DNA of 64,000 nucleotides from NCBI RefSeq assembly GCF_019175385.1, contig NC_083344.1, forward strand, positions 64,046,782-64,110,781, in the 5' to 3' direction. The notes under the pieces were generated by a model. The model saw nothing but the letters and a program-made list of their open reading frames with translations. It did no database searches and was not told the DNA's origin. Source of the stretch: Lycium barbarum (taxonomy: Eukaryota > Streptophyta > Magnoliopsida > Solanales > Solanaceae). Shown piece after piece: positions 6,552-54,232 of the stretch. Each line of letters starts with the position of its first letter. Positions within the stretch are counted from its first letter, which is position 1. The position numbers were made by a program, and so were the translations under genes.

Positions 6552-9352
6552 TGTTATATCCCGTATTTCGTACATTCAGATATTTAAAGGAAGTCGTGGT
6601 AAGTTAAGGGCAAGACTATTTTCCAAAATTATTTTAATGAACAAGTTGTTTATTAGTATGGTAATACTGTGAAAGGCTAGGGGCAAAATGGAAATTTCAT
6701 AAAATATTCAAGAAAGTTCTTGAAGAGGCCATGTTGGCCGTGTGGCATATAGGTATATGTCCACATTTTTATTTAATGGGGACTAATTATATATATGTGT
6801 GGACTAAAGCTTACATAAGAAGACAATTAGTCTTCTTTGTTTATTTTTAAGAAAGTTCAAGAAAAAGGAAGAAGGGGACATGTGTCCACCTTGGGTTGGT
6901 AGAGCCATATATATATATATAATTGATGACCAAAATAAGGGCAACTCATCATTTTGACTCTAGAACACTGGAAAAAAAAAGAGAAGAAGAAGAAAGAGAT
7001 ATAGTAGTGTTCGGCCATGGCTCAAAAAAATTGAGGCCATGGAAAGTGATCAAGAAAAATTATTTCTTCTCGCTTTTCTACTAAATGGAAGGCCCTTATT
7101 AACATGGAGTAATTGTTGGAACAAGCAAAGCATTCATTGGGCAATTCATAAGCCTAGCCGAATGAAGGAGTTAAGTGCAGAAGGTATGTATTCAATCTTC
7201 TTTCACATGTGTTAGGGGTGATTTGTGCATGTTATAGTATGTAGAAATGGATGAAATTCATGAAATATGTGTATATGGGTTGTGGCCGAGTAGGGCCAAG
7301 TTGGTAGAATGTGATGAATTGATTTTATTTAGTAGTTTGATTGTTGTCGTGGCAGATTCTATGATGTAAAATGAGGATTTAATGGTTGGAAATGAAGTTG
7401 TGATTGTTTGTGGATTATGGAAGAAGTTAGTGTGACATTAGTATGGTTTCTTATATTTGTAGGAATGATATTGCTAATGTGTAGGTTGTAAATATAATTC
7501 ATGAATTTGGAAGTGAGACATGTGTTGGAAGATTGTAAGTTGGGTTGTTGTGGTTGAATTTGAAAGAAGGAAATAGGTTGTTATTGTTCTCGTTGAGTTT
7601 GGAAGGTCTCGGGTGAAGTAGTATGTTGATTGGGTCGTTTTGAATGTTATGTGAATTGAATTAAATATAAATGAAATACCGTTGAATTGTATGACAAAGG
7701 TTGTTAATGTTAGAATGCGTCTTGAATCGATTGTTGATGTTGTTGGTATGATTGTTGGTATTGTTGTTGATAGTTCGGCCAAGTTTAATTCTCGGATTGT
7801 TGATTGATGAACGAGTTAGATTCTCGGGGATGGTGTATTTACAGGGGAGATGCTGCCGAAATTTCGGCAGATCATAAGTGAATTTATTTGAAAGACTAAG
7901 ACAAGTGTGTGTGACGATGAATCTAATGATTATGTAAATCTTCTTGAATGTAGACTAGCGATAACGAGCTTGGACAATTAAGCGTAGCTAATAGGACGTG
8001 GAGCAGGTATGTTAAGGCTCGTCCTTTTCTTTCAAGGCATGATTCCGATGCTATGATTTCATAATTGCTTCCATATTTTCCTTGTTTTTAAAAGTTAGAT
8101 GTTTATGATTCCAAGGCATGATTCTCTTCCCGATAACTCATAAACGTTTTTCCAAAGTGTCCGTATGCTACCAAAACAGAGGTTTATGATTTTATAAGCT
8201 CTTATGACAATAACGATGGATATGTTTTACAATGACAATGATGATACCAAGGATGAGAATATTTCTATGATGACTATGATGAGAATGATTTTCCAAAAAT
8301 GGCTTCTGAAACGTTCGTAGAAGGTTCTGTACTTCAAACGCTCATAACTTTCTTATACTAACTCGGATTGACCCGAAACTTGTTTCTGAGCCTTCAGGTG
8401 TCGGTAAGTATACTTGTCTATCAAGTCTTCCGTAATATAGTCGGAGGTTACCGACCTTACGTCACTCCGATAGAGACATAATATTCTTTGGGCTCTCCTG
8501 CATGCTGCTTACATGATATATGTATATGATATATGCATATGTATATGAGGAAGATGGGAAAAAGGGCCAGAGCGCTATAGACGCTGGGATATGCACACGA
8601 TACATGTATCTGTATATGACATGACATCATCCCGGACGCGGGATGCCCGGACGCGGGACATATGTGGTTAAATGGATCGGCTGCCGACGCCTCGGCAACA
8701 TGATATGTTCTATTTTCTATATATATGAACAAGAAATATTTTTCAAAGAAAGCTAAGCATGCATGGCATCCGCCCTAAGAGGTACTCACATGTACAGGTT
8801 ACTCTTTTATCTTATGATATGCTCTATATTTTCATTCGGTTATTATTCATATTTACAACCCTCACTATGTTACTATTAATGCCTTACATACTCAGTACAT
8901 TGCTCGTACTGACCCCCCTTTCTTCGGGGGCTGCGTTTCATGTCGCGCAGGTGTATACAGATGAGTAAAGGACATTGCTAGAAGATGCTTCAGCTGGATT
9001 GGCGAACTCCACATCCTTTCGGAGTGTTGCCGAGTCAGAGTACATGTGTTATGATTTCTGATTAATGTTACAGACTTTGCAGACAGAGTCGTGGGCATAG
9101 AATGTCAGTTTGTAAGCGGCTCCATCAGCCGATGTGTCTTATAGTATTATGTTACAGATCCATTATGATTACAGACTATACTTGATTTGAGTACGATGAA
9201 AGAAAAGTTTCCGAAGGCTTTACTATGTATTTCATTCTTATTCGATTTAAAGGTCCAAAGAGATTATGTATGTAATAAGAGTCAGCGGGTTCGCTCGGCT
9301 CCGAATGTGGGGTCGGGTGCCCATCACACCCTAGTAAGATCAGGGTGTGACA
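6552..9352 (+). repeat. Left LTR of element A
   Basis: Starts TGTTATATCCCG and ends GGGTGTGACA. Contains a TATA-like AT run near 6909, an 18-bp perfect palindrome at 7853-7870, and the CCCCC/GGGGG hairpin at about 8911-8933 preceded by CATACTCAGTACA. It is longer than the right LTR: about 150 bp near 8338-8480 has no counterpart on the right. Confidence 0.93.
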
Positions 9353-9438: not shown

Positions 9439-10248
9439 AGGCTGCAGGGTATCTAAGGATTGTTGACCTTCTTTCTGTCTTAGATCGTGCGATAGAGCCA
9501 AGTTATAGGAAAATGAGATTTCTTATATAAGTCTTACATACGACAGAAGGAGGTAAGTGATGATATGGGAAGTTATAGAAGTAAGCCTTGATATTTTGTT
9601 CTGTTACCTGAAATTGGAAGCTCTGGGTGGCTGGAGTATGTCGTATGACTGTATGCCCTGTGAGGCATTGTTGGTACTTGCTGCGTGCAGATTTTGAATA
9701 GTAAGAATGATAAGGGAGATTCCTCCAGAATAGTTCAGAAGTCAGGTCATTTAGTGAGATACGCCTAATAGGAAGAAGCGTGGAAAGGAAATACTATAAA
9801 CAGACGATAAGTGGTATGTGATATTTCAGAGGAGCTACGTATTTGGGCATGGCGTGAAAAATAACAGCGAGAGAGACGATTAGCAGTCCAGAGGATTAAA
9901 ATAGATAACATTCGAGGTTTAGTAAGAACAAGGTCTACTGAAGGATTCAGAGAAAGTTGACAATTAGTTTTCCTGTAAATTATTATGTATGGATGGTGAG
10001 TGGGAAATCCAAATGGGCTAATACCCGAAGCATTCATAAGTAACGGCGATGAAGGTATATTTACTATCATCGGGAATCTAGGAATCTAGGACGAGAGGTG
10101 GTTATACATATAAGTGAAAGGTGAATATTGAGGATTGAAAAAGGGCAAAATAGTAATTGTAAAGGGAAGGACGTGTTACGAAAATGTCTCGGAATCTGTA
10201 AGACTTCGACTTGCTCCAGATCATGTAATAAAGGTCATGCGAGGAAGT

Positions 10249-10351
10249 GGACGCGATTATATCAGCATTAAGGCACTGGATTCCATCGAAATTATGAGGT
10301 TAAGCGTGCTGAGGTGAGAGAAATTTTAGGATGGGTGACCCCCTAGGAAGT
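10249..10351 (+). pseudogene. 5S rRNA-derived segment in element A
   Basis: About 103 bases align without gaps to the plant 5S rRNA gene as I remember it, with roughly three quarters identity by hand count. The best preserved parts are GGTTAAGCGTGCT (box A region) and TAGGATGGGTGACCCCCTA (box C region), parts of the internal polymerase III promoter. Many differences are C-to-T or G-to-A. No TTTT terminator follows directly. The copy lies about 0.9 kb after the left LTR, in sense orientation. It cannot be a functional ribosomal gene in this state. Confidence 0.8.
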
Positions 10352-11894
10352 GAACTAAAAGTTCTATAAATTGAAACATAAGAGGCAAATGAGAAGCTAG
10401 AGTAACCTAAGGGGAACTAGAGTGTGCTGGATAGTTGGAGACCATAAAAGGTCGCATAGGATGAGACAGGCTAGACTGGAGAAGAGACAGAAAGTGTGTT
10501 ACAGCTCTGGAATTTGGATAGGCTTGAATAGCGTTTGGAAGTATTTTGTGGGCTAGTTGATAGTAATTATATATATATATATATATGAATGCGTATGATA
10601 TCTCATATGTAATTGTATTGGCGGGCATGTGATGTGTACCCCAGCAACCGGCATTACGGAATGGAAGGCATCAATCGAGTAAGGGTACCGAAGTTCAAGT
10701 GACAACAAAAGTAAGTGGTACCAGTGTTACGAGGTAAGCTGCTATTATTTCCACTAAAGGTTAAGATTGGAAAGTTCTAATACAACGATATTTGGAAAAG
10801 AAAGAGTGTAAATAAATGGAACGCAAGGAGATCAAAATGTCGGAAAAGGGAAAAAGGTAAGAAACCTCGGTGAATGAAACCCCCGAGAGAAACTACCGGC
10901 AAAGCACGAGACTACTTGGGTAAAACCTCAAAGATAGGAGTGTGAAGAAGATAAAGTGTGGTAATATGGAACAAAAGAGGAATGTGTGAGGTTCGAGAAC
11001 CAATTTCAATAAGTGGGGCTAAGAGAATAGTGACTGCGACAAGGAATGTGAGGTAAGAGAAACAATGCTTAGGCGTTGCGACGATGCTAGGAGATTTAGG
11101 CCCTTGAAAGGTATGTAAAGGGATAAGTGTGTAGCCATATTGATGTGGTTTCCTCGGACATGGAGGATCTTTCCTGAAAGGATGACTTAAGAGTAGAACA
11201 GACTTGTGCATTTAAAAGAATATTTCACGAACTTCAGAGCCGATGCCTCAAATGGCAAAAGGAAAAAGGTGCTCGAGTAGAAAGAAACCCAAGGAGGGTT
11301 AAGAATGAAAGTAGAAAAGGCATACTAACGGATTAGGCGAAGGAAGAGGAGAACATTTGGGAATGAAATGTAAGGAATGTACATGGGAGAGCCAACAAGG
11401 AATAACGATGGACGAAACGAGCGCCAATACAAAGAAATCAAAGACAAGTATAATTGTGTCGAGAAATGTGAGGGAAGGAGGTAAAGAAAAGTTGTGGCAA
11501 GAGCTCAAAGATGTTGCGAGCTAAGAAGTTAAGTGAACTCAGATCATAAGTTACCATAAGTGCAACTGGACTGCAATACTGTAGATAAAATGAGGGCAAG
11601 GAACAGCTTGTGGACATATTGGATCGTCGGATGCAAAGGTTACATACCAAAACATGACTTCTATTAAGACATTTTGACGAAACAGTAACAGAGAAGAGAT
11701 GATCTGGGAAGGACAAGAATAACGGGATGGCGCAGTGGATTGGAAAAACCTATGACACGGAGTAAGGACTCAAGTAAAGATCAAGAAGTTCGATTATAAA
11801 GTAAATAGGGTGAAATATAAGGAAGGGACGTGAAGGAAAGAACAGCTATAAGAGGGACCCTCCCGAAGTATTATAACACCCCATGAGGCCAGTT

Positions 11895-11931: not shown

Positions 11932-12286
11932 TGTTATATCCCATATTTCGTACATTCAAATATTTAAAGGAAGTCGTGGTAAGTTAAGGGCAAGACTATT
12001 TACCAAAATTATTTTAATGAACAAGTTGTTTATTAGTATGGTAATATTGTGAAAGGCTAGGGGCAAAATGGGAATTTCACAAAATATTCAAGAAGGTTCT
12101 TGAAGGGGCCATGTTGGCCGCGTAGCATAAAGGTATATGTCCACATTTTTATTTAATGGGGACTAATTATATATATGTGTGGACTAAAGCTTACATAAGA
12201 AGACAATTAGTCTTCTTTGTTAATTTTTAAGAAAGTTCAAGAAAAAGGAAGAAGGGGACATGTGTCCACCTTATGTTGGTAGAGCC

Positions 12287-12317
<31 letters not shown>

Positions 12318-14560
12318 TAATTGATGACCAAAATAAGGGCAACTCATCATTTTGACTCTAGAACACTGGAAAATAAAAGAAAGAGATATAGTAGTGTTCG
12401 GCCATGGCTCAAAAAAATTGAGGCCATGGAAAGTGATCAGGAAAAATTATTTCTTCTAGATTTTCTACTAAATGGAAGGCCCTTATTAACATGGAGTAGT
12501 TGTTGGAACAAGCAAATCATTCATTTGGGCAATTCATAAGCTTAGACGAATGAAGGAGTTAAGTGAAGAAGGTATGTATTCAATCTTCTTTCACATGTGT
12601 TAGGGGTGATTTGTGCATGTTATAGTATGTAGAAATGGATGAAATTCGTGAAATATGTGTATATGGGTTGTGGTCGAGTAGGGCCATGTTGGTAGAATGT
12701 GATGAATTAATTTTATTTAGTAGTTTGATTGTTGTTGTGGTAGATTCTACGATGTAAAATGAGGATTTAATGGTTGGAAATGAAGTTGTGATTTTTTGTG
12801 GATTATGGAAGAAGTTAGTGTGACATTAGTATGGTTACTTATATTTGTAGGAATGATATTGCCAATGTGTAGGTTGTAAATAAAATTCATGAATTTGGAA
12901 GTGAGACATGTGTTGGAAGATTGTAAGTTGGGTTGTTGTGGTTGAATTTGAAAGAAGAAAATAGGTTGTTATTGTTCTCGTTGAGTTTGGAAGGTCTCGG
13001 GTGAAGTAGTATGTTGATTGGGTCGTTTTGAATGTTATGTGAATTGAATTAAATATAAATGAAATACCGTTGAACTGTATGACAAAGGTTGTTAATGTTT
13101 GAATGTGTCTTGAATCGATTGTTGATGTTGCTGGTATGATTATTGGTATTGTTGTTGATAGTTTGGCCGAGTTTAATTCTCGGATTGTTGATTGATGAAC
13201 GAGTTAGATTGTCGGGGATGGTGTATTTACAGGGGAGATGCTGCCGAAATTTCGGCAGATCATAAGTGAATTTATTTGAAAGACTAAGACAAGTGTGTGT
13301 GACGATGAATCTAATGATTATGTAAATCTTCTTGAATGTAGACTAGCGATAACGAGCTTGGACAATTAAGCGTAGCTAATAGGACGTGGAGCAGGTATGT
13401 TAAGGCTCGTCCCTTTCTTTCAAGGCATGATTCCGATGCTATGATTTCATAATTGCTTCCATATTTTCCTTGTTTTCAAAAGTTAGATGTTTATGATTCC
13501 AAGGCATGATTCTCTTCCCGATAACTCGTAAACGTTTTTCCAAAGTGTCTATATGCTACCAAAACAGAGGTTTATGATTTTGTAAGCTCTTATGACAATA
13601 ACGATGGATATGTTTCACAATGATAATGATGATATCAAGGATGAGAATATTTCTATGATGACTATGACAAGAATGATTTTCGAAAAATGGCTTCTCAAAC
13701 GTTCGTAGAAGGTTCTGTACTTCAAATTCTTTGGGCTCTGCTGCATGCTGCTTAATATACATATGTATATGGGGAAGATGGGAAAAAGGGCCAGAGCGCT
13801 ATAGACGCTGGGATATGCACACGATACATGTATCTGTATATGACATGACATCATCCCGGACGCGGGACATATGTGGTTAAATAGATCGGCTGCCGACGCC
13901 TCGGCAACATGATATGTTCTATTTTGTATATATATAAACAAGAATGTTTTTCAAAGAGAGCTAAGCATGCATGGCATCCGCCCTAAGAGGCACTCACATG
14001 TACAGGTTACTCTTTTATCTTATGATATGCTCTATATTTTCATTCGGTTATTATTCATATTTACAACCCTCACTATGTTACTATTCATGCCTTACATACA
14101 CAGTACATTACTCGTACTGACCCCCCTTTCTTCGGGGGCTGCGTTTCATGCCGCGCAGGTGTATACGGATGAGTAAAGGACATTGCTAGAAGATTCTTCA
14201 GCTGGATTGGCGAACTCCACTTCATTTCGGAGTGTTGCCGAGTCAGAGTACATGTGTTATGATTTCTGATTAATGTTACAGACTTTGCAGACAGAGTCGT
14301 GGGCATAGAATGTCAGTTTGTAAGCGGCTCTATCAGCCGATGTGTCTTATAGTATTATGTTACAGATCCATTATGATTACAGACTATACTTGATTTGAGT
14401 ACGATGAAAGAAAAGTTTCTGAAAGCTTTACTATGTATTTCATTCTTATTCGATTTAAAGGTCCAAAGAGATTATGTATGTAATAAGAGTCAGCGGGTTC
14501 GCTCGGCTCTGAATATGGGGTCGGGTGCCCATCACACCCTAGTAAGATCGGGGTGTGACA
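11932..14560 (+). repeat. Right LTR of element A
   Basis: Starts TGTTATATCCCA and ends GGGTGTGACA. Compared with the left LTR it has a longer AT run at about 12285-12320, lacks about 150 bp near 13728, and has one rather than two copies of a CCCGGACGCGGGA word. It keeps the palindrome (13241-13258) and the hairpin (14121-14138). Confidence 0.93.
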
Positions 14561-14565
14561 GCTTC
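14561..14565. repeat. Target site duplication of element A, right copy (GCTTC)
   Basis: Exact match to 6547-6551. Confidence 0.95.
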
Positions 14566-19848: not shown

Positions 19849-21845
19849 TTATATGCGGCCGAGACACTAAGGCAGATCTGGTGGAGTTAGATATGATCGA
19901 GTTCGATGTTATTATGGGTATGGACTGGCTAGCTTCCTGTTATGCTAATGTTGACTGCCAAAATAAGGTAGTTCGTTTCCAGTTTCCCGGGGAGCCAGTT
20001 ATAGAATGGGCCGGTAATACAGGATCGCCGAAAGGTAAGTTTATTTCATACCTTAAGGCGAAGAAAATGATCAGAAAGGGTTATTTTTATCATCTGGTTC
20101 GGGTACAAGACTTGACAGCAGAAACGCCGACTCTTCAGTCAGTTCCCGTGGTTAATGAATTTCCGGATGTATTCCCAGATGAGCTTCCAGGCCTTCCTCC
20201 AGAGCAGGAGATAGATTTTACTATTGATTTGCTTCCAGATACTCAGCCGATATCTATTCCCCCGTACAGAATGGCACCGGCAGAATTGAAAGAACTGAAA
20301 GAGCAGTTGAAGGATCTGTTAGAAAAAGGCTTTATCAGGCCCAGTACTTCGCCTTGGGGAGCCCCGGTATTATTTGTGCGTAAGAAAGACGGGTCGCTGC
20401 GTATGTGTATTGATTATCGGCAGCTGAATAAGGTAACTATAAAGAATAAATACCCCCTCCCCAGAATTGATGACTTGTTTGATCAGTTGCAGGGCGCCAA
20501 ATATTTTTCGAAGATATATCTTCGGTCAGGCTATCATCAGGTACGGGTACGAGAGGCTGATATTCCTAATACAGCATTCCGGACTAGATATGGGCATTTT
20601 GAATTCAGAGTTATGTCTTTTGGGCTGACTAATGCTCCTGCGGTATTCATGGATTTAATGAACCGGGTATTCAGGCCGTTCTTAGACATGTTCGTAATTG
20701 TATTTATCGATGATATCCTGGTTTATTCTCGGTCCGAGGCAGAGCAAGCAGATCATCTGAGAGCGGTACTTGGGGTACTTCGGCATCGGAAATTATATGC
20801 AAAATTTTCTAAATGTGAATTCTGGCTGGCTTCAGTGGCATTTCTGGGGCATATTATTGCAGCTGATGGTGTCCGGGTGGATACACAGAAGATTGAGGCC
20901 GTGAAAAATTGGCCCAGACCCACGACGCCCACAGAGGTACGTAGTTTCCTGGGGTTAGCAGGCTATTACAGAAGATTTGTGGAAACGTTTGCTTCGATTT
21001 CAGCGCCTTTGACAAGGCTAACTCAGAAGGGAGCCAAGTTCCAGTGGACTGATGCTTGTGAACGAAACTTCCAGTTGCTGAAAGAGAAGCTGACTACAGC
21101 CCCAGTTCTGACTCTTCCAGAGGGACCCGATGGATATGTTATTTATTGTGACGCTTCTGGCGTGGGATTGGGCTGTGTATTGATGCAGCACGGTAGAGTT
21201 ATAGCTTATGCTTCTCGGCAATTGAAAAAGCATGAAAAGAATTATCCTACTCACGATCTGGAGCTTGCAGCGGTGATCCATGCCCTGAAGATATGGAGAC
21301 ATTATTTATATGGCGTTCATGTTGATATCTATACAGATCATAAGAGTCTCCAGTATATTTTCAGACAGAAAGAGCTTAATTTGCGGCAGCGGAGGTGGCC
21401 GGAGCTCCTGAAGGATTATGATGTGGATATTCTGTATCATCCGGGAAAGGCTAATGTTATGGCAGATGCGCTTAGCTGGAAATCTATGGGCAGCTTGGCA
21501 GATTTACAGCCGGACAGGAGAGAGATAGTGCGTGACCTTCATCAGTTGGCTATTCTTGGGGTTCGTCTGGCCGAATCTGGAGGTACACGGATTTTTGTCC
21601 GAGGGGTTTCTGAATCATCTATTAAGGAAGATATCAAACGGCATCAATATGAAGATCCTGTTTTGGCACGATACAGAGACACAGCCTATGATAAGGAGAA
21701 GACTCCGTTCGAGTTCACTCCGGACGGGACTTTATTATTCAGGGGCAGGTTGTGTGCGAGGCACATTATGCTCGCTATTCGGTCCATCCTGGGTCTACGA
21801 AGATGTACCATGATCTCCGATGCTTATACTGGTGGGATGGCATGA
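19838..21845 (+). pseudogene. Protease remnant, reverse transcriptase and RNase H of element B
   Basis: Open for 654 residues from the Met at 19881, with protease sequence readable back to about 19838. Order: the C-terminal half of protease ([10 protein letters not shown]) without its active-site Asp; a linker; RT from about residue 95; RNase H from about 400. RT shows [17 protein letters not shown] and the FIDD pair at residues 277-278. The first catalytic Asp, expected in [10 protein letters not shown], is Tyr at residue 213, so the enzyme should be dead although the frame is open. RNase H is seen by YCDASG (Asp near 424) and [12 protein letters not shown]. Near the end the frame shifts, close to 21745, and the last residues are not integrase. 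D carries a closely similar protein with the Asp intact. Confidence 0.88.
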
Positions 21846-23119
21846 AACGGGACATTGCAGAGTTCGTCGCCTAGTGTCCCAATTGTCAGCAGGTCAAGAT
21901 TGAACACCAGAAACCGGGTGGACTGTTGCAGGAAATGGAAATTCCGACGTGGAAGTGGGAGATCATTATTATGGACTTCATTACAGGGTTGCCTCGCACT
22001 CCACGGAAGTATGATTCCATCTGGGTTATTGTTGATAGGCTGACAAAATCAGCCCATTTTCTCCCCGTCAGGACTACTTATTCCGCCGAGGATTATGCCA
22101 GGCTTTATATTAAAGAAATAGTGAAGCTTCATGGAGTTCCTATATCTATTATCACTGACAGAGGTGCTCAGTTCACAGCGAACTTCTGGAGATCTTTTCA
22201 GGAAGGATTAGGGACCCAGCTGAGCCTGAGCACAGCTTTCCATCCTCAGAGTGACGGACAGGCCGAGCGCACTATCCAGACACTTGAAGATATGTTGCGG
22301 GCCTGCGTTATTGATTTCAGAGGCAGCTGGGAGGATCACTTGCCATTGATTGAATTTTCTTATAATAACAGCTACCATTCCAGCATCCAGATGGCTCCGT
22401 ACGAGGCTTTATATGGTAGGAAATGCAGGTCACCTATTGGCTGGTTTGATATTGGCGAGACAGAATTAATCGGCCCAGATATGGTCCAGCAGGCAGTTGA
22501 TAAGGTGAAACTTATCCGAGAGCGACTATTGGCAGCCCAGAGTCGACAGAAATCATACGCTGATAAACGGCGTCGTCCTTTGGAATTCCAGGTTGGTGAT
22601 TGGGTATTTTTGAAGGTATCGCCTATGAAAGGCGTGATGCGGTTCGGCAGAAAGGGTAAGCTCAGTCCGCGTTATATTGGGCCTTATCTGATTGTGCGAA
22701 AAATTGGTAATGTCGCATATGAGTTAGATCTGCCATCTGATTTGGAAGCGGTACATCCGGTATTCCATGTGTCTATGCTCCGCAAATGCATTGGTGATCC
22801 CTCCAGAATATTTCCTGCGGATGATATTCAGATGACGGAGCAGTTATCTTATGAGGAGCAGCTCGTAGCTATTTTGGACCGCCAGGTAAGAAAGATCCGG
22901 AACAAACATGTAGCCTCTGTTAAGGTGATGTGGCGGAACGATAATAGGGAGGAAATGACCTGGGAGGCCGAAGAGGAGATGAAGAAGAAATACCCTCATT
23001 TGTTCCCTATGCCCTCAGGTAATCTCGAATCTTTGTTAAATTCCATTTCAATAACGAATGTGCTGTCTATAAACAGAAACTCCCCCGGAGCCTTTTCAAA
23101 TCCTATAAGATTAATTTAA
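21744..23119 (+). pseudogene. Integrase with chromodomain of element B
   Basis: The H2C2 zinc region (21753-21890) is in a different frame from RNase H and has a TAG before CPNC, where CAG is expected. From 21926 a 397-residue frame is open. Its catalytic residues are Asp17 (MDFITGLP), Asp78 (ITDRGAQF) and Glu114 (GQAERT), with 35 residues between the last two. The GPYLIVRKIG and VHPVFHVSMLRK motifs follow. A chromodomain-like tail (VAILDRQVRKIRNK, VKVMWRN, EEMTWEAEEEMKKKYPHLF) ends near residue 360; such tails steer chromoviruses to marked heterochromatin. The final 30 residues are probably an extension past the usual stop. Confidence 0.88.
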
Positions 23120-37848: not shown

Positions 37849-39014
37849 ATGGCTCTGACGCGATCCAAAAACGGTAACCGAGCACAACCCGCGTGAGCTA
37901 ACCGAAATCTTGGGGGCGCGATTGTTGGTAATAGAAATGATGCTGGAAGCCAAGCACCACCTCCAGCACCGCCTGCTCCGGCTATTCCTATTGCGGATGT
38001 GCCTGAGATTGGTACCATGCAAAATGCTATTCAAATGTTGACTGCTTTGGTTGCGACTCAGCAGCAACGTGGAGGTGTGGGACCTTATGGTGGAGGCAGA
38101 CTTAAGCAATTCCTAGACTTAAAGTCACCATAGTTCTTTGGGTCACGAGAGGTGGATGACCCACAATACCTTTTAGATGAGACCTTCAAGGCATTGAGGG
38201 CAATGGATGCCCATGATTCTGAAGCTGTGATCTTATCAGTTGAAGGATGTTGCTCAAGCATGGTTTGGGATATGGGAATCTGAGAGGGGTGATACTGCTT
38301 TAGCTTTGACGTGGGCTAAATTTGAAGAGGCGTTCATGGAAAGGTTCTTGTCCGATGAAGAAAGATTTGCTATGGCTACGAAGTTTGATAAGCTGGAACA
38401 GGGTAATAAGTCGGTTCGTGAGTATAGTTTGGAGTTCACCCGTTTGTCAAAGTATGCTTTATACATGATTCCGAATAGAAAGGATAAGTTGACTCATTTT
38501 GTGAAAGGCTTGGTAGCACGTATCAAGTTTGCATGTGCTGCTGTTGCTATGTCTCCTACTTGTACCTTCTCATCTTTGGTTGGGTTTGCTGAACAATAAG
38601 AGAGTTGCAAAAATGAGTAGTGGGTGGATCCAGATCAGAATAAGAAGGCCTGTTTAGCGGGTGGTTTCAGTGGTAATAATTATAAGGGAGGCTAGAGTAA
38701 AGGGTATTCGGCACCTACTCAGTCCTGGTAGGCCAGGTGAAAAGAATAATAACCAAACTAGTTAATCCCAGGGTAGTAGTCTATCTGCTGTGTCGGAAGA
38801 TCGTATCTGTCATCACTGTGGTATTAGGGGGCATCTTAAGAGGGAGTGCAGAAAATGGCTATGCGAGGTGGCTTCTATGTCTAACCAAAGGAATGATTCG
38901 CCTGTTCCTGCATCTACTAGAAATCCGCCTGCTGGTAATGCTAACAATAATAATCAGAATGCTCGTAATAATGGCAAAGAAAAAGAAGTTGCTAGCATTT
39001 CTAGTGGAGGGATA
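37849..39014 (+). pseudogene. Gag of element E
   Basis: Starts MALTRSKNG at 37849. Stops at 37894 (TGA, CGA expected) and 38131 (TAG, CAG expected) and a frameshift near 38238 break the N-terminal half. From 38240 a 119-residue frame is open and holds the capsid domain (KDVAQAWF, FMERFLSDEER, KFDKLEQGNKSVREY). A zinc knuckle CHHCGIRGHLKREC (CX2CX4HX4C) lies at about 38811-38852. The protein would form the particle and bind RNA. Element C is inserted just downstream, before protease. Confidence 0.85.
39010..39014. repeat. Target site duplication of composite C, left (GGATA)
   Basis: GGATA directly before the first LTR is repeated exactly at 54228-54232. Confidence 0.95.
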
Positions 39015-42000
39015 TGTTACATCCGACATTTTTGTGTATTCGAAAAATTCAAGGTAAATTGACTTGTAATGGATAAGGCCACAATTGGACATTTCTTGGT
39101 ATGAATGTGTAGGGTATAAAAACAATGGTGTGGAATTACGAAAGGTGGCCAAGGGCAAAAATTGGAATTTTGGAAACTTGCCCCATGAATTACAATATGT
39201 AACCACCAATTTGGGCTCAATAAAAATTAATGAAACAAGGCCCAACAAGGGGAGGCCCAACCGGCCAAAGGGTCCAAGCCCCTTAAGTGATTAATTTCCA
39301 TGTGGAATTGTAAGTATACTTATCCTAAGAAGGTTCAAGAAGCAAAGCAAAAACCAAAGGGAAAAAAAAAAGAGGCGTTTCGGGTTTAGGAGGAAAAGAA
39401 GAGAGAAAAGAAAGAAAAATTTTGGGAGCCAAATCTTTGCTCTAAAAATCCAAGTTTTGTGAGATTTGTACTAAGCTCAAGGTTCTCTTCAAGTTGGTAT
39501 AAATATTGTGGCAAGAAAACACTTTCATCCTCCAAGTGAAGGGCTTGAAGAAAGGTGAGAATTTCATGCTTTTGTTGTGTTATAAATGGTATATGTATGT
39601 TGTAGTATGTGTGAATGAATGAAAAACATTGAAATTTTGTGTGTTGGAACTAGGGGTGTGTTGGCCGAATATGTACATGAAATTGCATGATTTTAATGGC
39701 TTGAATTCTTGTTGTAATCTAGTTGTAATATGATGGGAATTATATTAGAAAGGAAAGTGGAATGAATTAGTGAAAAATTGGGAGTGTGGGAGGTGGCCGT
39801 GTGGTGCTAGGTTTGATATGAAATATGAATTTGATTTTTGGTTGTGTGCTAATTGAGTTAAGGTGAATTGAATCTTGTTAGCATGTTAATTGTGTTGTTA
39901 TGGAAGATTGGTTATTAAGTTGTTGAAGGAAATTATTGAACTTTGTTATGATTTGTGTATAAGTGAAAATGAAAGTGTTAAGAGGCAAATTATGCTTATG
40001 ACAATGAACTTGGAATATAAAAATGTGTTGATGAGTTTGCATGTTGAAAGTTAGGAAGGGATTGGAAAAGTAGTGACTTGATGGAAAGTTGAATGTTTGT
40101 GAATTTTATGAATATCTTGTGAATATTATGTGAACATGTTATGGATTCCTCCGATGTGTGTCGTAATGATTTTGATGGATAATGGATATGAAAATAATAA
40201 GTTTTGGTTGGAAATGTAAGCTTGAAACGAAAGATGATTCGTCGTGTCGAAGGGTGGCTAATAATGCCATAGCGTATGATTTAGTGGTTATTGATGTTTG
40301 TTGTTGTTTGGATGTCTCCTCTGGGTTGTTGTGTTGCTAAATTGAGCCGAGCTAAGTCTCGGGGATGTCGTATATACAGAGGAAATGCTGCCGAAATTTC
40401 GGTAGGCAATTATGTGTAAAGTTAGAATATTGAAAGAATGGAACTAACCAAATGGTAAACTTGACCATTTCCAGATTTTGGGCGAAATTTGGATTGACGC
40501 CAAGAGAGCATAAGGCCCCATCGAGGTATGTGAAGCACTTCTCTACGTTCCTAGGCATGTTCTGGATGTGGTAGGCTCGACCGCGAGCCTTAAGTCCGAC
40601 TCCGTTCCCCGGAATTCGAGACGGAAAACCGCTCCAATTCCTTCAATTCAATTGAACCTATTTTCTTACAAATTGTCCTTAAAGTGAGATTTTGCACAAA
40701 AATTTCCCCAAACGGAGTCGGAACACTTCCGAATGAGTATGGGTGACCTCATAAGGTCAATTATCAATAATTTACGTATGTAGTCTCGGGTGGGTCCGAG
40801 GTGGGCCCACAAGGCCCGATACTCCCGGTACGATTTTAAAATACATCTGTTTTGGTCCGATGTTCTCCAAAAACTTCTGAACTATTGTTTTATGTATATT
40901 ATGGCTATTTTTGTGTAATTTATACAATATGATTTCTGAACAGTTGAGAATCCCATTCTGATAATAATCTGTCGTGCCTTCCCAACTAGGATATAGGCGC
41001 GTACTATGCATACTATCTGGATATTCTGATTTTGGCTCGCCGTTTGGCACCCTTCAATTTGATCGAGTCTGTATGTTGAGTCTGTAGGTAGGTGGTTTCT
41101 CATTTATCGATTCGTGTCTGTCTCAATGCATTCTTTCACTGCGACCCGGGCCAGGTTCTGTTATCGTGCATAATTCTCTGCATTGTTCACCGCGTCCCTC
41201 GGCGTACGGGTCGGGATCTGTATGTCTGTATGATCTGTGTATGGGGATGGCGGCCAGGATGGCATATGATCTGATTTGATTCTGTCTGTCCACCGCGTCC
41301 CGTACTAAGAGGGCCGGGTTCTGTTACCGCGCCCCCAGACAGGGCCGGGATCTGTATGAATATATGCGTGTGCCATCTGTATTTATAAAGCACACGCCTT
41401 TGTATGATTTTGTATGACTCTGTGCTACTCTGCATGCATAATTCTGTCCGTCATACTACTGTCTGTCCGTCTGTGTTACAACTATTTCTGTATGTCCGTA
41501 TGGCTTCTGCTTCTGTATGTCCGTATGGATTCAGATTCTGCTCGTCTGTCCGTATTATGATTCCGTTTGTCTGTCCGAACTATAATCCTGTTCATTTGTG
41601 TGTAACACGATTCTGTATGTCTGTCTGGATCATAACTCTGTCCGTTAGTTTGACTTATGATTCTGCCCGTTATATTTTTGTGACTATGTTTATATCTGTT
41701 ACGTTTCTGCTTTACATACTCGGTACATTTTCCGTACTGACCCCCGTTCTTCGGGGGCTGCGCTACATGCCCGCAGGTACAGACGCGCCAGGTGACACGC
41801 CGCCAGTGTAGGTTCTGACTCTGCCATTCGAAGAGCTCCTTTGACTCGGAGCATATCTTTTGGTATATATTTTCTGTCTTCTGTGTACTCCGTATGTATG
41901 TATATTCTGGGTACGGCGGGGCCCTGTCCCGTCATATGATCCTGTATGTCTGTAGAGGCCTGTAGATGGATATGTGGGTTACGGGTTTCGTCTGTATGTT

Positions 42001-42213
42001 AGCCTTATCGGCTTATCTGTAAATGTCTGTATGTTCAGGTATATGTATATATATATGTAAGTTACGCGCGTGCCGTAATTGTATCGGCCTACTTCTGTAC
42101 TTCTGTTTTGGAAAAAAAAAAAAAAACTCTGTATGGTTCGAGTTCGATCAGGTAGGTACGTATGGGTGCCCAGTTAGGGTACCAGTCGCGGCCACGGGGT
42201 TTGGGTCGTGACA
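39015..42213 (+). repeat. LTR C1
   Basis: Starts TGTTACATCCGACATT, ends GGGTTTGGGTCGTGACA. 3199 bp. Lacks 12 bp near 41684 that C2 and C3 have, and has a longer poly-A (42113-42126). Contains the palindrome 40388-40405, hairpins 41741-41757 and 41915-41933, and a stretch rich in CTGTATGTCCGTATG words (41400-41700). Confidence 0.93.
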
Positions 42214-42217
42214 AAAG

Positions 42218-42229
42218 TGGTATCAGAGC
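42218..42229 (+). promoter_or_regulatory. Primer binding site, first unit of C
   Basis: TGGTATCAGAGC, initiator-Met type, four bases after LTR C1. Confidence 0.92.
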
Positions 42230-42270
42230 GGTTAGTCCTCGGTATGTCTACAGGCCGTGTCTAGTAGAGT

Positions 42271-42498: not shown

Positions 42499-43080
42499 AT
42501 GAAGAGGACGGCTTCCGACGATGAGGATGGGGGTGCCAAGAAGGCCCCCAGGTTGTCACCAGGGCCGAGTAGGCAGGGCCCCAGTTACTCGATCGAGACG
42601 GATCCTTCGGAGGATTCCCCGGAGGATAGCTACGATACGGATCCGTCGGAGGACCCATCTACGACTCCTCCAGAGACCCCGAACCCTGGAGCAGAGGATC
42701 CCGTGGAGGATGGCTACGATACAGATATCTCGGAGGATTTGGCGATGACCCCTCCGGAGCTTCTTACCTCCGAGGAGGAGGATAGTCATGAGGCAGGCCC
42801 GTCGGAGCATTCTTCTGGGATGACGCAGGAGGAGATTTTCAAGTATGCACCAGCTCTTATTATTAGGGAGAACCTTGATAGCCCGGCCACCTCGGAGAGT
42901 GCTATGGATTTCTCCTGTTCTTGGCCTGGGTCACCAGTGGGCCAGGATTTGTTTGATCGTCCATACCCCTCCGATTCAGATGCGGGTGATAATGGAAACC
43001 GGGTAGGTAGGGAGCAGACAGGCGTGGATGATAGTGGGCATACCTCTCACGGCAGCTCCCCAGGTCAGACTCGATATTGA
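42499..43080 (+). CDS. Unknown acidic Ser/Pro-rich protein of element C
   Basis: 193 residues starting MKRTASDDEDGG, 285 bp after LTR C1, in the position gag holds in coding relatives. A basic patch (AKKAPR) that could act as a nuclear localisation signal is followed by strongly acidic sequence. A degenerate internal repeat occurs: DSYDTDPSEDPSTTPPE and DGYDTDISEDLAMTPPE. No zinc knuckle, capsid motif, signal peptide or membrane segment is seen. Low-complexity composition suggests a disordered protein. I do not recognise the family. It may be a gag N-terminus worn down to a stub, or a gene kept by this element alone. The second unit has a stop in the middle of the frame. Confidence 0.55.
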   Translation: MKRTASDDEDGGAKKAPRLSPGPSRQGPSYSIETDPSEDSPEDSYDTDPSEDPSTTPPETPNPGAEDPVEDGYDTDISEDLAMTPPELLTSEEEDSHEAGPSEHSSGMTQEEIFKYAPALIIRENLDSPATSESAMDFSCSWPGSPVGQDLFDRPYPSDSDAGDNGNRVGREQTGVDDSGHTSHGSSPGQTRY

Positions 43081-43818
43081 TTATTTATAAGTGTATGAGT
43101 TTTTAGAACTTCCTATGTGTGTATGATATTTGTAAGACGTTGTTCTATGAAGACGACGGAAATTTAAAGGAATTAGAGACCTAGTGACCCCAAGGCAAGG
43201 GCGACGGAGATGTCCCCACCGTCAGTGTGAGTCTAGAAATCCTGGATGAAGGTAAACAGGAAGGTGCCTTCGATGCTGTTTGAGTTGGGCGCGTGTGGTA
43301 AGTGTCGACGACATTATAATTCTCATTTGAAGTTATCAGCCCCGTGTGGCTGCGATACGATATGATATGATATGTATGTATGTGTATATGAGTTGGCCCT
43401 GTGAGGCATGATTGGTATTTCTGGTGTATAGGTTTTGGATAGTAAGAAATGCAGAGGAAACTCTGCCCAAATATTTCCAGGAATATGGAGGTTAACATGT
43501 AGATTAAGTACAAAAAGGTCCCGCGATACTTGTCAGACTTTAGTTCCTTCTGTCGGTGGCCGAAGAACACCTTGCGGTGACATTTTATCAGATTCCACCG
43601 ATTATTTGGAGGCGGAATTCGTGTGACGAAGACTTAAATCCGTGGGTTATCTGTAATCATATGTATATGTGTATGAAAGTGAATGTTTAAGATTCAGAAA
43701 GGCGACATGGTAGTGGTACGACTTAGCCGGGGGTGGGACCCGCTACAAAAATTTTCCAAAAATTTGCGAAGACCCCGATTTGCTCTAAAATTACGTGACA
43801 AAGGTCGTGAGGGGCAAT

Positions 43819-43921
43819 CGACGAAATTATATTAGCCCTAACGTGTCGAAATGCATGAAAGTTTCGGAGTTAAGCGTGCTCAGGCCATAGCAATTCTGGG
43901 ATGGGTGACCCCCTGGGAAGT
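43819..43921 (+). pseudogene. 5S rRNA-derived segment, first unit of C
   Basis: 103 bases align without gaps to a plant 5S rRNA gene as remembered. The 3' half is strikingly preserved: GAGTTAAGCGTGCT (box A) and GGGATGGGTGACCCCCTGGG (box C). The 5' half and the stretch between the boxes are more diverged. A TTTT run lies at 43931-43934, ten bases downstream, as for a minimal polymerase III terminator. The flank upstream (from about 43740) resembles that in element A. Sense orientation. Confidence 0.85.
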
Positions 43922-44289
43922 AATGCAAAGTTTTGCTCAAGTGTAGGTATGACCGATATAAATGAAAACTTGGGGTAATCTAAAGGAAAAGAGAATGTAT
44001 GGAGTAATTAGCGCCTTTACAGATACCACACAGACCGACGCGGGTTAAATGGGCAAAAAGGAAAGGTGCGATACCACTCGGAAAACTTAGCGAATCTGGA
44101 TAACAGTCAGCGACGACCCGAATGTTGTCAGGGGATAGAAAAAGCCCAATTACATCATAAGTTAGTCTGGTATGGCGATGGTTGTAAAAGGAAAGAGAGT
44201 ATGGATAGTAGGGAAGGAGAGAGATAAGTAGAGCGAGTAAGCAGAAACTTTGAAAAAGTCGATAAGCGACACCCAAGACGATTTGTATG

Positions 44290-44976: not shown

Positions 44977-45012
44977 AACATTCGAGGACGAATGTTCTAA
45001 AGGGGGGGAGAA
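44977..45012 (+). promoter_or_regulatory. Inverted repeat and polypurine tract, first unit of C
   Basis: AACATTCG-AGGA-CGAATGTT, then AAAGGGGGGGAGAA up to LTR C2. Confidence 0.85.
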
Positions 45013-48000
45013 TGTTACATCCGACATTTTTGTGTATTCGAAAAATTCAAGGTAAATTGACTTGTAATGGATAAGGCCACAATTGGACATTTCTTGGTAT
45101 GAATGTGTAGGGTATAAAAACAATGGTGTGGAATTACGAAAGGTGGCCAAGGGCAAAAATTGGAAATTTGGAAACTTGCCCCATGAATTACAATATGTAA
45201 CCACCAATTTGGGCTCAATAAAAATTAATGAAACAAGGCCCAACAAGGGGAGGCCCAACCGGCCAAAGGGTCCAAGCCCCTTAAGTGATTAATTTCCATG
45301 TGGAATTATAAGTATACTTATCCTAAGAAGGTTCAAGAAGCAAAGCAAAAACCAAAGGAAAAAAAAAAAGAGGCGTTTCGGGTTTAGGAGGAAAAGAAGA
45401 GAGAAAAGAAAGAAAAATTTTGGGAGCCAAATCTTTGCTCTAAAAATCCAAGTTTTGTGAGATTTGTACTAAGCTCAAGGTTCTCTTCAAGTTGGTATAA
45501 ATATTGTGGCAAGAAAACACTTTCATCCTCCAAGTGAAGGGCTTGAAGAAAGGTGAGAATTTCATGCTTTTGTTGTGTTATAAATGGTATATGTATGTTG
45601 TAGTATGTGTGAATGAATGAAAAACATTGAAATTTTGTGTGTTGGAACTAGGGGTGTGTTGGCCGAATATGTACATGAAATTGCATGATTTTAATGGCTT
45701 GAATTCTTGTTGTAATCTAGTTGTAATATGATGGGAATTATATTAGAAAGGAAAGTGGAATGAATTAGTGAAAAATTGGGAGTGTGGGAGGTGGCCGTGT
45801 GGTGCTAGGTTTGATATGAAATATGAATTTGATTTTTGGTTGTGTGCTAATTGAGTTAAGGTGAATTGAATCTTGTTAGCATGTTAATTGTGTTGTTATG
45901 GAAGATTGGTTATTAAGTTGTTGAAGGAAATTATTGAACTTTGTTATGATTTGTGTATAAGTGAAAATGAAAGTGTTAAGAGGCAAATTATGCTTATGAC
46001 AATGAACTTGGAATATAAAAATGTGTTGATGAGTTTGCATGTTGAAAGTTAGGAAGGGATTGGAAAAGTAGTGACTTGATGGAAAGTTGAATGTTTGTGA
46101 ATTTTATGAATATCTTGTGAATATTATGTGAACATGTTATGGATTCCTCCGATGTGTGTCGTAATGATTTTGATGGATAATGGATATGAAAATAATAAGT
46201 TTTGGTTGGAAATGTAAGCTTGAAACGAAAGATGATTCGTCGTGTCGAAGGGTGGCTAATAATGCCATAGCGTATGATTTAGTGGTTATTGATGTTTGTT
46301 GTTGTTTGGATGTCTCCTCTGGGTTGTTGTGTTGCTAAATTGAGCCGAGCTAAGTCTCGGGGATGTCGTATATACAGAGGAAATGCTGCCGAAATTTCGG
46401 TAGGCAATTATGTGTAAAGTTAGAATATTGAAAGAATGGAACTAACCAAATGGTAAACTTGACCATTTCCAGATTTTGGGCGAAATTTGGATTGACGCCA
46501 AGAGAGCATAAGGCCCCATCGAGGTATGTGAAGCACTTCTCTACGTTCCTAGGCATGTTCTGGATGTGGTAGGCTCGACCGCGAGCCTTAAGTCCGACTC
46601 CGTTCCCCGGAATTCGAGACGGAAAACCGCTCCAATTCCTTCAATTCAATTGAACCTATTTTCTTACAAATTGTCCTTAAAGTGAGATTTTGCACAAAAA
46701 ATTCCCCAAACGGAGTCGGAACACTTCCGAATGAGTATGGGTGACCTCATAAGGTCAATTATCAATAATTTACGTATGTAGTCTCGGGTGGGTCCGAGGT
46801 GGGCCCACAAGGCCCGATACTCCCGGTACGATTTTAAAATACATCTGTTTTGGTCCGATGTTCTCCAAAAACTTCTGAACTATTGTTTTATGTATATTAT
46901 GGCTATTTTTGTGTAATTTATACAATATGATTTCTGAACAGTTGAGAATCCCATTCTGATAATAATCTGTCGTGCCTTCCCAACTAGGATATAGGCGCGT
47001 ACTATGCATACTATCTGGATATTCTGATTTTGGCTCGCCGTTTGGCACCCTTCAATTTGATCGAGTCTGTATGTTGAGTCTGTAGGTAGGTGGTTTCTCA
47101 TTTATCGATTCGTGTCTGTCTCAATGCATTCTTTCACTGCGACCCGGGCCAGGTTCTGTTATCGTGCATAATTCTCTGCATTGTTCACCGCGTCCCTCGG
47201 CGTACGGGCCGGGATCTGTATGTCTGTATGATCTGTGTATGGGGATGGCGGCCAGGATGGCATATGATCTGATTTGATTCTGTCTGTCCACCGCGTCCCG
47301 TACTAAGAGGGCCGGGTTTTGTTACCGCGCCCCCAGACAGGGCCGGGATCTGTATGAATATATGCGTGTGCCATATGTATTTATAAAGCACACGCCTTTG
47401 TATGATTTTGTATGACTCTGTGCTACTCTGCATGCATAATTCTGTCCGTCATACTACTGTCTGTCCGTCTGTGTTACAACTATTTCTGTATATCCGTATG
47501 GCTTCTGCTTCTGTATGTCCGTATGGATTCAGATTCTGCTGGTCTGTCCGTATTATGATTCCGTCTGTCTGTCCGAACTATAATCCTGTTCATTTGTGTG
47601 TAACACGATTCTGTATGTCTGTCTGGATCATAACTCTGTCCGTTAGTTTGACTTATGATTCTGCCCGTTATATTTCTGTGACTCTAGTTCGGACTATGTT
47701 TATATCTGTTACGTTTCTGCTTTACATACTCGGTACATTTTCCGTACTGACCCCCGTTCTTCGGGGGCTGCGCTACATGCCCGCAGGTACAGACGCGCCA
47801 GGTGACACGCCGCCAGTGTAGGTTCTGACTCTGCCATTCGAAGAGCTCCTTTGACTCGGAGCATATCTTTTGGTATATATTTTCTGTCTTCTGTGTACTC
47901 CGTATGTATGTATATTCTGGGTACGGCGGGGCCCTGTCCCGTCATATGATCCTGTATGTCTGTAGAGGCCTGTAGATGGATATGTGGGTTACGGGTTTCG

Positions 48001-48220
48001 TCTGTATGTTAGCCTTATCGGCTTATCTGTAAATGTCTGTATGTTCAGGTATATGTATATATATATGTAAGTTACGCGCGTGCCGTAATTGTATCGGCCT
48101 ACTTCTGTACTTCTGTTTTGGAAAAAAAAAAAACTCTCTATGGTTCGAGTTCGATCAGGTAGGTACGTATGGGTGCCCAGTTAGGGTACCAGTCGCGGCC
48201 ACGGGGTTTGGGTCGTGACA
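45013..48220 (+). repeat. LTR C2 (middle)
   Basis: 3208 bp, same ends as C1. It acts as 3' LTR of the first unit and 5' LTR of the second. Palindrome 46386-46403, hairpin 47751-47767. Confidence 0.93.
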
Positions 48221-49825: not shown

Positions 49826-49928
49826 CGACGAAATTATATTAGCCCTAACGTGTCGAAATGCATGAAAGTTTCGGAGTTAAGCGTGCTCAGGCCATAGCAA
49901 TTCTGGGATGGGTGACCCCCTGGGAAGT
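49826..49928 (+). pseudogene. 5S rRNA-derived segment, second unit of C
   Basis: Identical to 43819-43921 by eye, exactly 6007 bp downstream, including the TTTT run ten bases after it. Confidence 0.85.
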
Positions 49929-51019: not shown

Positions 51020-54000
51020 TGTTACATCCGACATTTTTGTGTATTCGAAAAATTCAAGGTAAATTGACTTGTAATGGATAAGGCCACAATTGGACATTTC
51101 TTGGTATGAATGTGTAGGGTATAAAAACAATGGTGTGGAATTACGAAAGGTGGCCAAGGGCAAAAATTGGAATTTTGGAAACTTGCCCCATGAATTACAA
51201 TATGTAACCACCAATTTGGGCTCAATAAAAATTAATGAAACAAGGCCCAACAAGGGGAGGCCCAACCGGCCAAAGGGTCCAAGCCCCTTAAGTGATTAAT
51301 TTCCATGTGGAATTATAAGTATACTTATCCTAAGAAGGTTCAAGAAGCAAAGCAAAAACCAAAGGAAAAAAAAAAAGAGGCGTTTCGGGTTTAGGAGGAA
51401 AAGAAGAGAGAAAAGAAAGAAAAATTTTGGGAGCCAAATCTTTGCTCTAAAAATCCAAGTTTTGTGAGATTTGTACTAAGCTCAAGGTTCTCTTCAAGTT
51501 GGTATAAATATTGTGGCAAGAAAACACTTTCATCCTCCAAGTGAAGGGCTTGAAGAAAGGTGAGAATTTCATGCTTTTGTTGTGTTATAAATGGTATATG
51601 TATGTTGTAGTATGTGTGAATGAATGAAAAACATTGAAATTTTGTGTGTTGGAACTAGGGGTGTGTTGGCCGAATATGTACATGAAATTGCATGATTTTA
51701 ATGGCTTGAATTCTTGTTGTAATCTAGTTGTAATATGATGGGAATTATATTAGAAAGGAAAGTGGAATGAATTAGTGAAAAATTGGGAGTGTGGGAGGTG
51801 GCCGTGTGGTGCTAGGTTTGATATGAAATATGAATTTGATTTTTGGTTGTGTGCTAATTGAGTTAAGGTGAATTGAATCTTGTTAGCATGTTAATTGTGT
51901 TGTTATGGAAGATTGGTTATTAAGTTGTTGAAGGAAATTATTGAACTTTGTTATGATTTGTGTATAAGTGAAAATGAAAGTGTTAAGAGGCAAATTATGC
52001 TTATGACAATGAACTTGGAATATAAAAATGTGTTGATGAGTTTGCATGTTGAAAGTTAGGAAGGGATTGGAAAAGTAGTGACTTGATGGAAAGTTGAATG
52101 TTTGTGAATTTTATGAATATCTTGTGAATATTATGTGAACATGTTATGGATTCCTCCGATGTGTGTCGTAATGATTTTGATGGATAATGGATATGAAAAT
52201 AATAAGTTTTGGTTGGAAATGTAAGCTTGAAACGAAAGATGATTCGTCGTGTCGAAGGGTGGCTAATAATGCCATAGCGTATGATTTAGTGGTTATTGAT
52301 GTTTGTTGTTGTTTGGATGTCTCCTCTGGGTTGTTGTGTTGCTAAATTGAGCCGAGCTAAGTCTCGGGGATGTCGTATATACAGAGGAAATGCTGCCGAA
52401 ATTTCGGTAGGCAATTATGTGTAAAGTTAGAATATTGAAAGAATGGAACTAACCAAATGGTAAACTTGACCATTTCCAGATTTTGGGCGAAATTTGGATT
52501 GACGCCAAGAGAGCATAAGGCCCCATCGAGGTATGTGAAGCACTTCTCTACGTTCCTAGGCATGTTCTGGATGTGGTAGGCTCGACCGCGAGCCTTAAGT
52601 CCGACTCCGTTCCCCGGAATTCGAGACGGAAAACCGCTCCAATTCCTTCAATTCAATTGAACCTATTTTCTTACAAATTGTCCTTAAAGTGAGATTTTGC
52701 ACAAAAATTTCCCCAAACGGAGTCGGAACACTTCCGAATGAGTATGGGTGACCTCATAAGGTCAATTATCAATAATTTACGTATGTAGTCTCGGGTGGGT
52801 CCGAGGTGGGCCCACAAGGCCCGATACTCCCGGTACGATTTTAAAATACATCTGTTTTGGTCCGATGTTCTCCAAAAACTTCTGAACTATTGTTTTATGT
52901 ATATTATGGCTATTTTTGTGTAATTTATACAATATGATTTCTGAACAGTTGAGAATCCCATTCTGATAATAATCTGTCGTGCCTTCCCAACTAGGATATA
53001 GGCGCGTACTATGCATACTATCTGGATATTCTGATTTTGGCTCGCCGTTTGGCACCCTTCAATTTGATCGAGTCTGTATGTTGAGTCTGTAGGTAGGTGG
53101 TTTCTCATTTATCGATTCGTGTCTGTCTCAATGCATTCTTTCACTGCGACCCGGGCCAGGTTCTGTTATCGTGCATAATTCTCTGCATTGTTCACCGCGT
53201 CCCTCGGCGTACGGGCCGGGATCTGTATGTCTGTATGATCTGTGTATGGGGATGGCGGCCAGGATGGCATATGATCTGATTTGATTCTGTCTGTCCACCG
53301 CGTCCCGTACTAAGAGGGCCGGGTTCTGTTACCGCGCCCCCAGACAGGGCCGGGATCTGTATGAATATATGTGTGTGCCATCTGTATTTATAAAGCACAC
53401 GCCTTTGTATGATTTTGTATGACTCTGTGCTACTCTGCATGCATAATTCTGTCCGTCATACTACTGTCTGTCCGTCTGTGTTACAACTATTTCTGTATGT
53501 CCGTATGGCTTCTGCTTCTGTATGTCCGTATGGATTCAGATTCTGCTCGTCTGTCCGTATTATGATTCCGTCTGTCTGTCCGAACTATAATCCTGTTCAT
53601 TTGTGTGTAACACGATTCTGTATGTCTGTCTGGATCATAACTCTGTCCGTTAGTTTGACTTATGATTCTGCCCGTTATATTTCTGTGACTCTAGTTCGGA
53701 CTATGTTTATATCTGTTACGTTTCTACTTTACATACTCGGTACATTTTCCGTACTGACCCCCGTTCTTCGGGGGCTGCGCTACATGCCCGCAGGTACAGA
53801 CGCGCCAGGTGACACGCCGCCAGTGTAGGTTCTGACTCTGCCATTCGAAGAGCTCCTTTGACTCGGAGCATATCTTTTGGTATATATTTTCTGTCTTCTG
53901 TGTACTCCGTATGTATGTATATTCTGGGTACGGCGGGGCCCTGTCCCGTCATATGATCCTGCATGTCTGTAGAGGCCTGTAGATGGATATGTGGGTTACG

Positions 54001-54227
54001 GGTTTCGTCTGTATGTTAGCCTTATCGGCTTATCTGTAAATGTCTGTATGTTCAGGTATATGTATATATATATGTAAGTTACGCGCGTGCCGTAATTGTA
54101 TCGGCCTACTTCTGTACTTCTGTTTTGGAAAAAAAAAAAACTCTGTATGGTTCGAGTTCGATCAGGTAGGTACGTATGGGTGCCCAGTTAGGGTACCAGT
54201 CGCGGCCACGGGGTTTGGGTCGTGACA
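51020..54227 (+). repeat. LTR C3
   Basis: 3208 bp, ends GGGTTTGGGTCGTGACA. Palindrome 52393-52410, hairpin 53758-53774. Followed by the GGATA duplication. Confidence 0.93.
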
Positions 54228-54232
54228 GGATA
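54228..54232. repeat. Target site duplication of composite C, right (GGATA)
   Basis: Exact match to 39010-39014. Confidence 0.95.

Follow-up and report, generated by a model that had tools for sequence, protein, structure and literature searches.

A 5S rRNA gene-derived segment in the internal regions of large non-autonomous LTR retrotransposons of Lycium barbarum

The window, that is, the whole stretch of 64,000 nucleotides of Lycium barbarum DNA that was analysed, contains two large LTR elements, A and C, and a related element, B1. Element C is an array of three LTRs and two internal regions (39010-54232) with a single flanking target-site duplication; the length of one unit is 9206 bases. 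Each internal region opens with a primer-binding site, TGGTATCAGAGC, which we take to be of the initiator-tRNA-Met type, and is closed by a polypurine tract. Element A spans 8009 bases. Paired LTRs, the primer-binding site, the polypurine tract and the target-site duplication are all present in A and in C. The parts are as follows.

39010..39014, no strand, left target-site duplication GGATA of element C
39015..42213, plus strand, LTR 1 of element C
42218..42229, plus strand, primer-binding site of element C, read from the sequence
42499..43080, plus strand, acidic repetitive ORF of 193 amino acids in unit 1 of element C, without Pfam match
44999..45012, plus strand, polypurine tract before LTR 2 of element C
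45013..48220, plus strand, LTR 2 of element C, common to both units, 99.6% identical to LTR 1
51020..54227, plus strand, LTR 3 of element C, 99.75% identical to LTR 1
54228..54232, no strand, right target-site duplication GGATA of element C
6547..6551, no strand, left target-site duplication GCTTC of element A
6552..9352, plus strand, LTR 1 of element A
11932..14560, plus strand, LTR 2 of element A, 97% identical to LTR 1 over 2610 aligned columns
14561..14565, no strand, right target-site duplication GCTTC of element A
19881..23119, plus strand, pol region of element B1 (reverse transcriptase, RNase H, integrase, chromodomain), from Pfam

The ORF of 193 amino acids contains SYDTDPSED-type repeats, and its copy in unit 2 (48506-49087) is interrupted by an internal stop. 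It has 22 database relatives, two from L. barbarum (the best being 99% identical), 11 from L. ferocissimum and nine among ENA proteins; in the viral collection viral_contigs three stretches were matched and none was confirmed. The internal regions of C contain no further start-codon ORFs of at least 150 amino acids, the internal region of A contains no ORF of that length, and neither chromodomain integrase nor reverse transcriptase domains were found in A or C. In P0001, a protein of L. barbarum, the last ten residues correspond to LTR positions 41776-41805 and their copies, as if a gene model had been spliced from the ORF into the LTR. A different part of the internal region of C, 44284-44682, consists of direct repeats, each about 200 bases long, that have diverged to 62-64% identity.

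B1 is a chromodomain Ty3/gypsy element; such elements are presumably of the Tekay/Del type. Its LTR is about 60% similar to that of C, and the LTR end together with the leader is 79% similar. On this LTR and leader similarity the A/C lineage is probably related to chromodomain Ty3/gypsy elements. B1 has pol and the chromodomain. The pol ORF of B1 begins about 580 bases past the LTR end at 19299, and therefore the element looks internally shortened, with most of the gag region seemingly missing.

Over an alignment of 2478 columns, the LTRs of A and C share 57% identity. At such low identity the two elements belong to distant subfamilies. With a substitution rate assumed to be 1.3e-8 per site per year, the LTRs would have split about 25 million years ago, which is a rough estimate, as a forced alignment at 57% nears saturation.

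The internal regions of A and of both C units contain a segment derived from a 5S rRNA gene, embedded in A and C in a homologous block.

43674..44083, plus strand, block of about 410 bases in element C, homologous to 10115-10512 of element A
43819..43921, plus strand, 5S rRNA gene-derived segment in unit 1 of element C, 5S positions 1-103 without gaps (cmscan, ungapped comparison)
43868..43915, plus strand, internal control region in element C (box A, IE, box C; 5S positions 50-97), the best-conserved part of the block
49826..49928, plus strand, letter-identical 5S segment in unit 2 of element C (cmscan)
10115..10512, plus strand, block in element A homologous to 43674-44083 of element C
10249..10351, plus strand, internal 5S segment of element A, homologous to those of element C and diverged from them (cmscan, nhmmer, ungapped comparison)

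An earlier note on this DNA, made from the letters alone, had reported the segments of C. Its description was accurate: a gap-free 5S match of about 103 bases at 43819, the same letters at 49826, a TTTT run about ten bases downstream (nine bases lie between), and a position inside a large non-autonomous LTR element, one that has no pol genes, and outside the LTRs, unlike Cassandra. The two C segments, being identical, are not independent. The comparison with the Rfam 5S model RF00001 that the note had proposed gave a significant match, although one under the curated cut-off. In C it extends across the full 120 positions of the model and scores 37.3 bits at 43822-43936, as it does at 49829-49943, with E-values of 4.2e-6 for 601 bases and 4.5e-4 for the whole window and all families. 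The gathering score is 38 bits, and so a default Rfam scan does not list the segment. In A the match scores 27.8 bits (E 0.15 over the window, 7e-4 over 301 bases), and nhmmer finds the segment with E 3.1e-16. The query of the latter search and of all direct comparisons was an assumed plant 5S gene sequence, which we take as the reference.

Without gaps, 75 of 120 reference positions match in C, with +1 at 43819, and 83 of 120 in A. The best plus-strand placements of 200 shuffled 5S sequences in the window average 50.8 matches and do not exceed 60, and a chance match was therefore rejected. A functional 5S gene was rejected as well: within 103 positions there are 31 departures from the reference in C and 22 in A, the scores are under the gathering score, and positions 104-120 are nearly unmatched (3/17 in C, 2/17 in A). 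The RF00001 matches are confined to internal regions, at three places, 1605 bases into the internal region in C and 896 bases in A. No match with E up to 1 falls in any LTR of A or C, and location of the segment within an LTR was rejected. Exact-pattern scans for the 5S core in viral_contigs and genome_contigs, which by their descriptions hold viral, bacterial and archaeal sequences and no plants, gave no match, a result of little weight, and a protein search with the minus-strand frame across the C segment gave no candidate.

The blocks of A and C can be aligned over 419 columns with 64% identity (E 4e-30), and a two-row profile made from them finds the three known places alone in the window. 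They are preceded, in the same order, by a second motif common to both elements (43378-43477 and 9636-9736). In both the 5S match starts at +1 and fades after about +103. At 14 sites of 5S 1-103 both copies differ from the reference, and at 10 of these they have the same base; a few of the ten could be natural Solanaceae 5S variants. Since the block is homologous and derived changes are common to the copies, the simplest explanation is that the capture took place once, long ago, and these comparisons argue strongly for a single 5S capture before the divergence of A and C. The absence of the 5S block, and of any RF00001 match, from B1 may be a secondary loss. Two ORFs from ENA, P0023 and P0024, 90% and 75% identical to the frame of A, cross the same block into the 5S part as far as about +75, short of box C, which means that at least two further copies exist. 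The 5S segment is thus older and more widespread than the two units of the earlier note, which had named absence from all other family copies as counter-evidence; its presence in A and in the two ORFs settles that point in favour of the note.

No trace of 5S spacer elements was seen beside the segments of A and C, and 5S RNA or a 5S-headed element fits as the source of the capture equally with a 5S gene. Insertion of a 5S SINE into the element was set aside, as there is no clear duplication around the segment; an old insertion could have lost one. The longest direct repeat flanking the segment is 6 bases in C, a length reached by 93% of 500 shuffles, and 8 bases in A, reached by 21%. The repeat of A, AGGAAGTG, occurs at 10242-10249, just before and over 5S +1, and at 10345-10352, where the 5S match ends. 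It may mark the old capture junction, a reading to be set beside the 21% of shuffles that do equally well.

The internal control region is conserved between A and C in excess of its surroundings. Positions 50-97 are identical at 39/48 sites, as compared to 205/338 in the remaining block (Fisher p 0.0034). This test omitted positions 98-103, all six of which are identical; with them added to the remainder (211/344) p is 0.0044. Positions 1-49, with 29/49 identical, evolve like the flanks. Against the reference, 33 of 39 box positions are kept in each copy; outside the boxes the counts are 39/64 in C (p 0.009) and 48/64 in A (p 0.18, not significant). This supports the earlier claim, made for C, that preservation is concentrated on the promoter boxes. 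Base-matched permutation agrees, with six box changes observed in C against 11.4 expected (P 0.012) and P 0.23 in A. Direct comparison of A with C inside the segment gives 32/39 in boxes and 42/64 elsewhere (p 0.056). The matches to the reference, in C and A respectively, are 13/15 and 12/15 in box A, 4/6 and 5/6 in IE, and 16/18 and 16/18 in box C; IE is poorly kept between the two copies (3/6 identical).

Conservation was also scanned along the local alignments of A with C in 2561 windows of 56 columns. Within a single unit of C, distinct peaks of at least 42/56 fall on two LTR motifs (48 and 49), the leader (44 and 43), the motif at 43392 (43), the control region of 5S (47) and the polypurine tract (50); the control region is thus surpassed by the tract and the two LTR motifs alone. 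The scan window at 43866 scores 46/56 and is exceeded by 104 of the 2561 windows. Compared to all other aligned columns (2019/2858, both LTRs of the unit counted), the 5S core gives no more than p 0.038. Coming from two lineages, these data suggest constraint on the promoter region at the level of DNA, and they give moderate support to selection on the internal control region.

The observed 5S identity, internal location, homology of the A and C blocks and excess conservation of the promoter region would, among functional readings, be fitted best by a docking site, with a decaying passenger close behind. We tentatively prefer a single old capture whose control region has been kept as a putative docking site for 5S promoter factors, and consider the chance of this to be slightly under even. 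According to it, a lineage of non-autonomous LTR elements, akin to the chromodomain Ty3/gypsy group, would in a single ancient event have acquired the body of a 5S gene, from +1 to about +103, in its internal region and have passed it down to at least two subfamilies. Box A, IE and box C would be retained at the DNA level for docking of TFIIIA and TFIIIC, with Pol III recruitment possible. The segment would not produce the genomic RNA, its distance from the start of the internal region being about 1.6 kb in C. It cannot be a genomic promoter of the Cassandra type, since RNA started from it would lack the 5' LTR and the primer-binding site.

It is also quite possible, if somewhat less than probable, that after the same single capture the segment has decayed without function, the boxes having been spared by chance or by regional differences in mutation. 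Of the departures from 5S, 13 out of 31 in C and 13 out of 22 in A are C>T or G>A, the changes expected when methylated DNA decays; box sparing in A is not significant in either test; and the external promoter elements and the terminator are not kept. However, functionless decay does not readily account for the difference between 39/48 and 205/338, for the rank of the promoter region as one of the highest conservation peaks in the element, or for the permutation result in C, which stays at P 0.012 with base composition matched.

The earlier note had also suggested that the segment could drive an independent short RNA. As an explanation, an independent Pol III unit yielding such an RNA from the internal region appears improbable. 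Boxes A and C are largely kept, and in C a TTTT run stands at +113, nine bases beyond the segment. However, A has no such terminator: one TTTT lies inside the segment at +76 and the first one downstream is at +296, so that no terminator common to A and C was found. In Solanum the upstream elements of 5S genes are TTTAATA at -30 and GC at -12, and T at -1 is present in more than half of the species (PMC9043955, from the part of the article consulted). A scan found neither TTTAATA nor GC kept at the usual places in A or C, the best TTTAATA matches being 6/7 at -25 in A and 5/7 at -35 in C; T at -1 is present in both. The segment RNAs do not fold better than their shuffles, which equal or surpass them in 175 and 147 cases out of 200. 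We also considered, and dropped, a conserved hairpin following box C, with equally stable shuffles at 3.5% in A and 41% in C. No tRNA-like promoter was detected in the window by ARAGORN in its bacterial setting. Coding use of the segment was dropped too, as the frame of C that starts from 43683 stops just after 5S +1; A-like copies are open in one frame across the segment, and ORF look-ups select open copies.

Very improbable is a mimic at the RNA level, in which the segment within genomic RNA would bind TFIIIA or ribosomal protein L5 and aid export or packaging: C keeps 17 of the 20 inner 5S pairs (13.8 under random placement, P 0.054) and has pairs changed on both sides, three among the inner pairs and one outside, but A shows no excess (17 pairs, 16.3 expected, P 0.45), one pair of its helix III is broken and two are G-U, which weakens the helix, and neither segment folds better than shuffled sequences.

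A and C resemble Cassandra in being non-autonomous LTR elements with a 5S segment whose internal control region is best kept, and C further resembles it in forming a tandem array with common LTRs (PMC7215508, PMC4717578, in the excerpts consulted). The excerpt of PMC10853983 places the 5S sequence of 81 Cassandras near the LTR middle and never at the LTR ends, and that of PMC10886601 gives element lengths of 565-860 bp. According to the consulted part of a survey of plant TRIMs, no TRIM besides Cassandra contains 5S sequence (PMC4717578). As far as these excerpts go, the 5S piece of Cassandra thus lies in the LTR of small elements, whereas in A and C it lies between the LTRs of elements of 8-9 kb; of the Cassandra/TRIMp3 features, a 5S piece in the LTR and a size of about 1 kb or less, neither was found in A or C. 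Ajax, a TRIM of two nemerteans, carries partial 5S sequence in its LTR (PMC10886601, in part). The likeness to Ajax and TRIMp3 is the capture of a small-RNA promoter region, from 5S in the case of Ajax, by a non-autonomous LTR element; in the same excerpt they differ in that the captured piece is in the LTR, the elements are 421-434 bp long and the hosts are animals.

LARDs are, in the consulted text of PMC7215508, large, LTR-flanked, devoid of retrotransposon proteins and presumed to be moved in trans. By that description A and C are alike in the first three respects; the difference is that C has an ORF of its own, the one with 22 database relatives. Another kind of mobile element with a 5S-derived internal promoter is SINE3, the 5S-headed SINEs, which are non-LTR elements. 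The block of A and C, in contrast, lies within LTR elements with no clear insertion duplication around it. To our knowledge, no LARD with a 5S segment has been described. Among the matches listed in a search of titles and abstract beginnings of open-licence papers, with subscription papers and preprints outside its scope, no report places 5S sequence between the LTRs of an element. A and C are a structurally new variant among 5S-carrying LTR retrotransposons.

The position in the LTR lets the 5S piece of Cassandra and Ajax start and end the genomic RNA. An internal copy cannot do this, and so would serve another purpose, if it is under selection. One possibility, which we regard as rather unlikely, is a second, independently evolved use of the 5S gene by LTR retrotransposons. 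In a large non-autonomous family an internal control element, recruiting TFIIIA and TFIIIC or mimicking 5S RNA, might have been maintained for perhaps tens of millions of years for a purpose other than the genomic transcript; it might, for example, influence chromatin position, counteract silencing, act as an insulator or give rise to a regulatory RNA. If this is true, capture of Pol III promoters extends beyond miniature elements, and the A/C family is a system for asking what a site for 5S factors gives to an element of the Pol II type. For annotation, scattered 5S-like matches in nightshade genomes may be parts of retrotransposons.

Several other features were observed in the window. The LTR motif GTACTGACCCCC..TTCTTC..GGGGG is strongly conserved in A (14085-14160), B1 (25696-25767) and C (41708-41763), and by eye it may form a hairpin. 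The motif at 43378-43477 in the internal region of C and 9636-9736 in that of A recurs at 26037-26146 in the LTR of B1, and by eye a part of it resembles a conserved LTR motif at 40348. The possibility that it is an internal LTR relic was rejected: it matches the LTR of B1 and not that of its own element, and it was therefore treated as a motif in common. A match to plant snoR71 at 16381-16474 (44.6, gathering score 40) lies on the strand opposite to a gag-like ORF (15327-16991). The region 58825-58970 is a long imperfect inverted repeat with weak matches, far under the cut-offs, to several plant microRNA families, and is perhaps a small inverted-repeat transposon.
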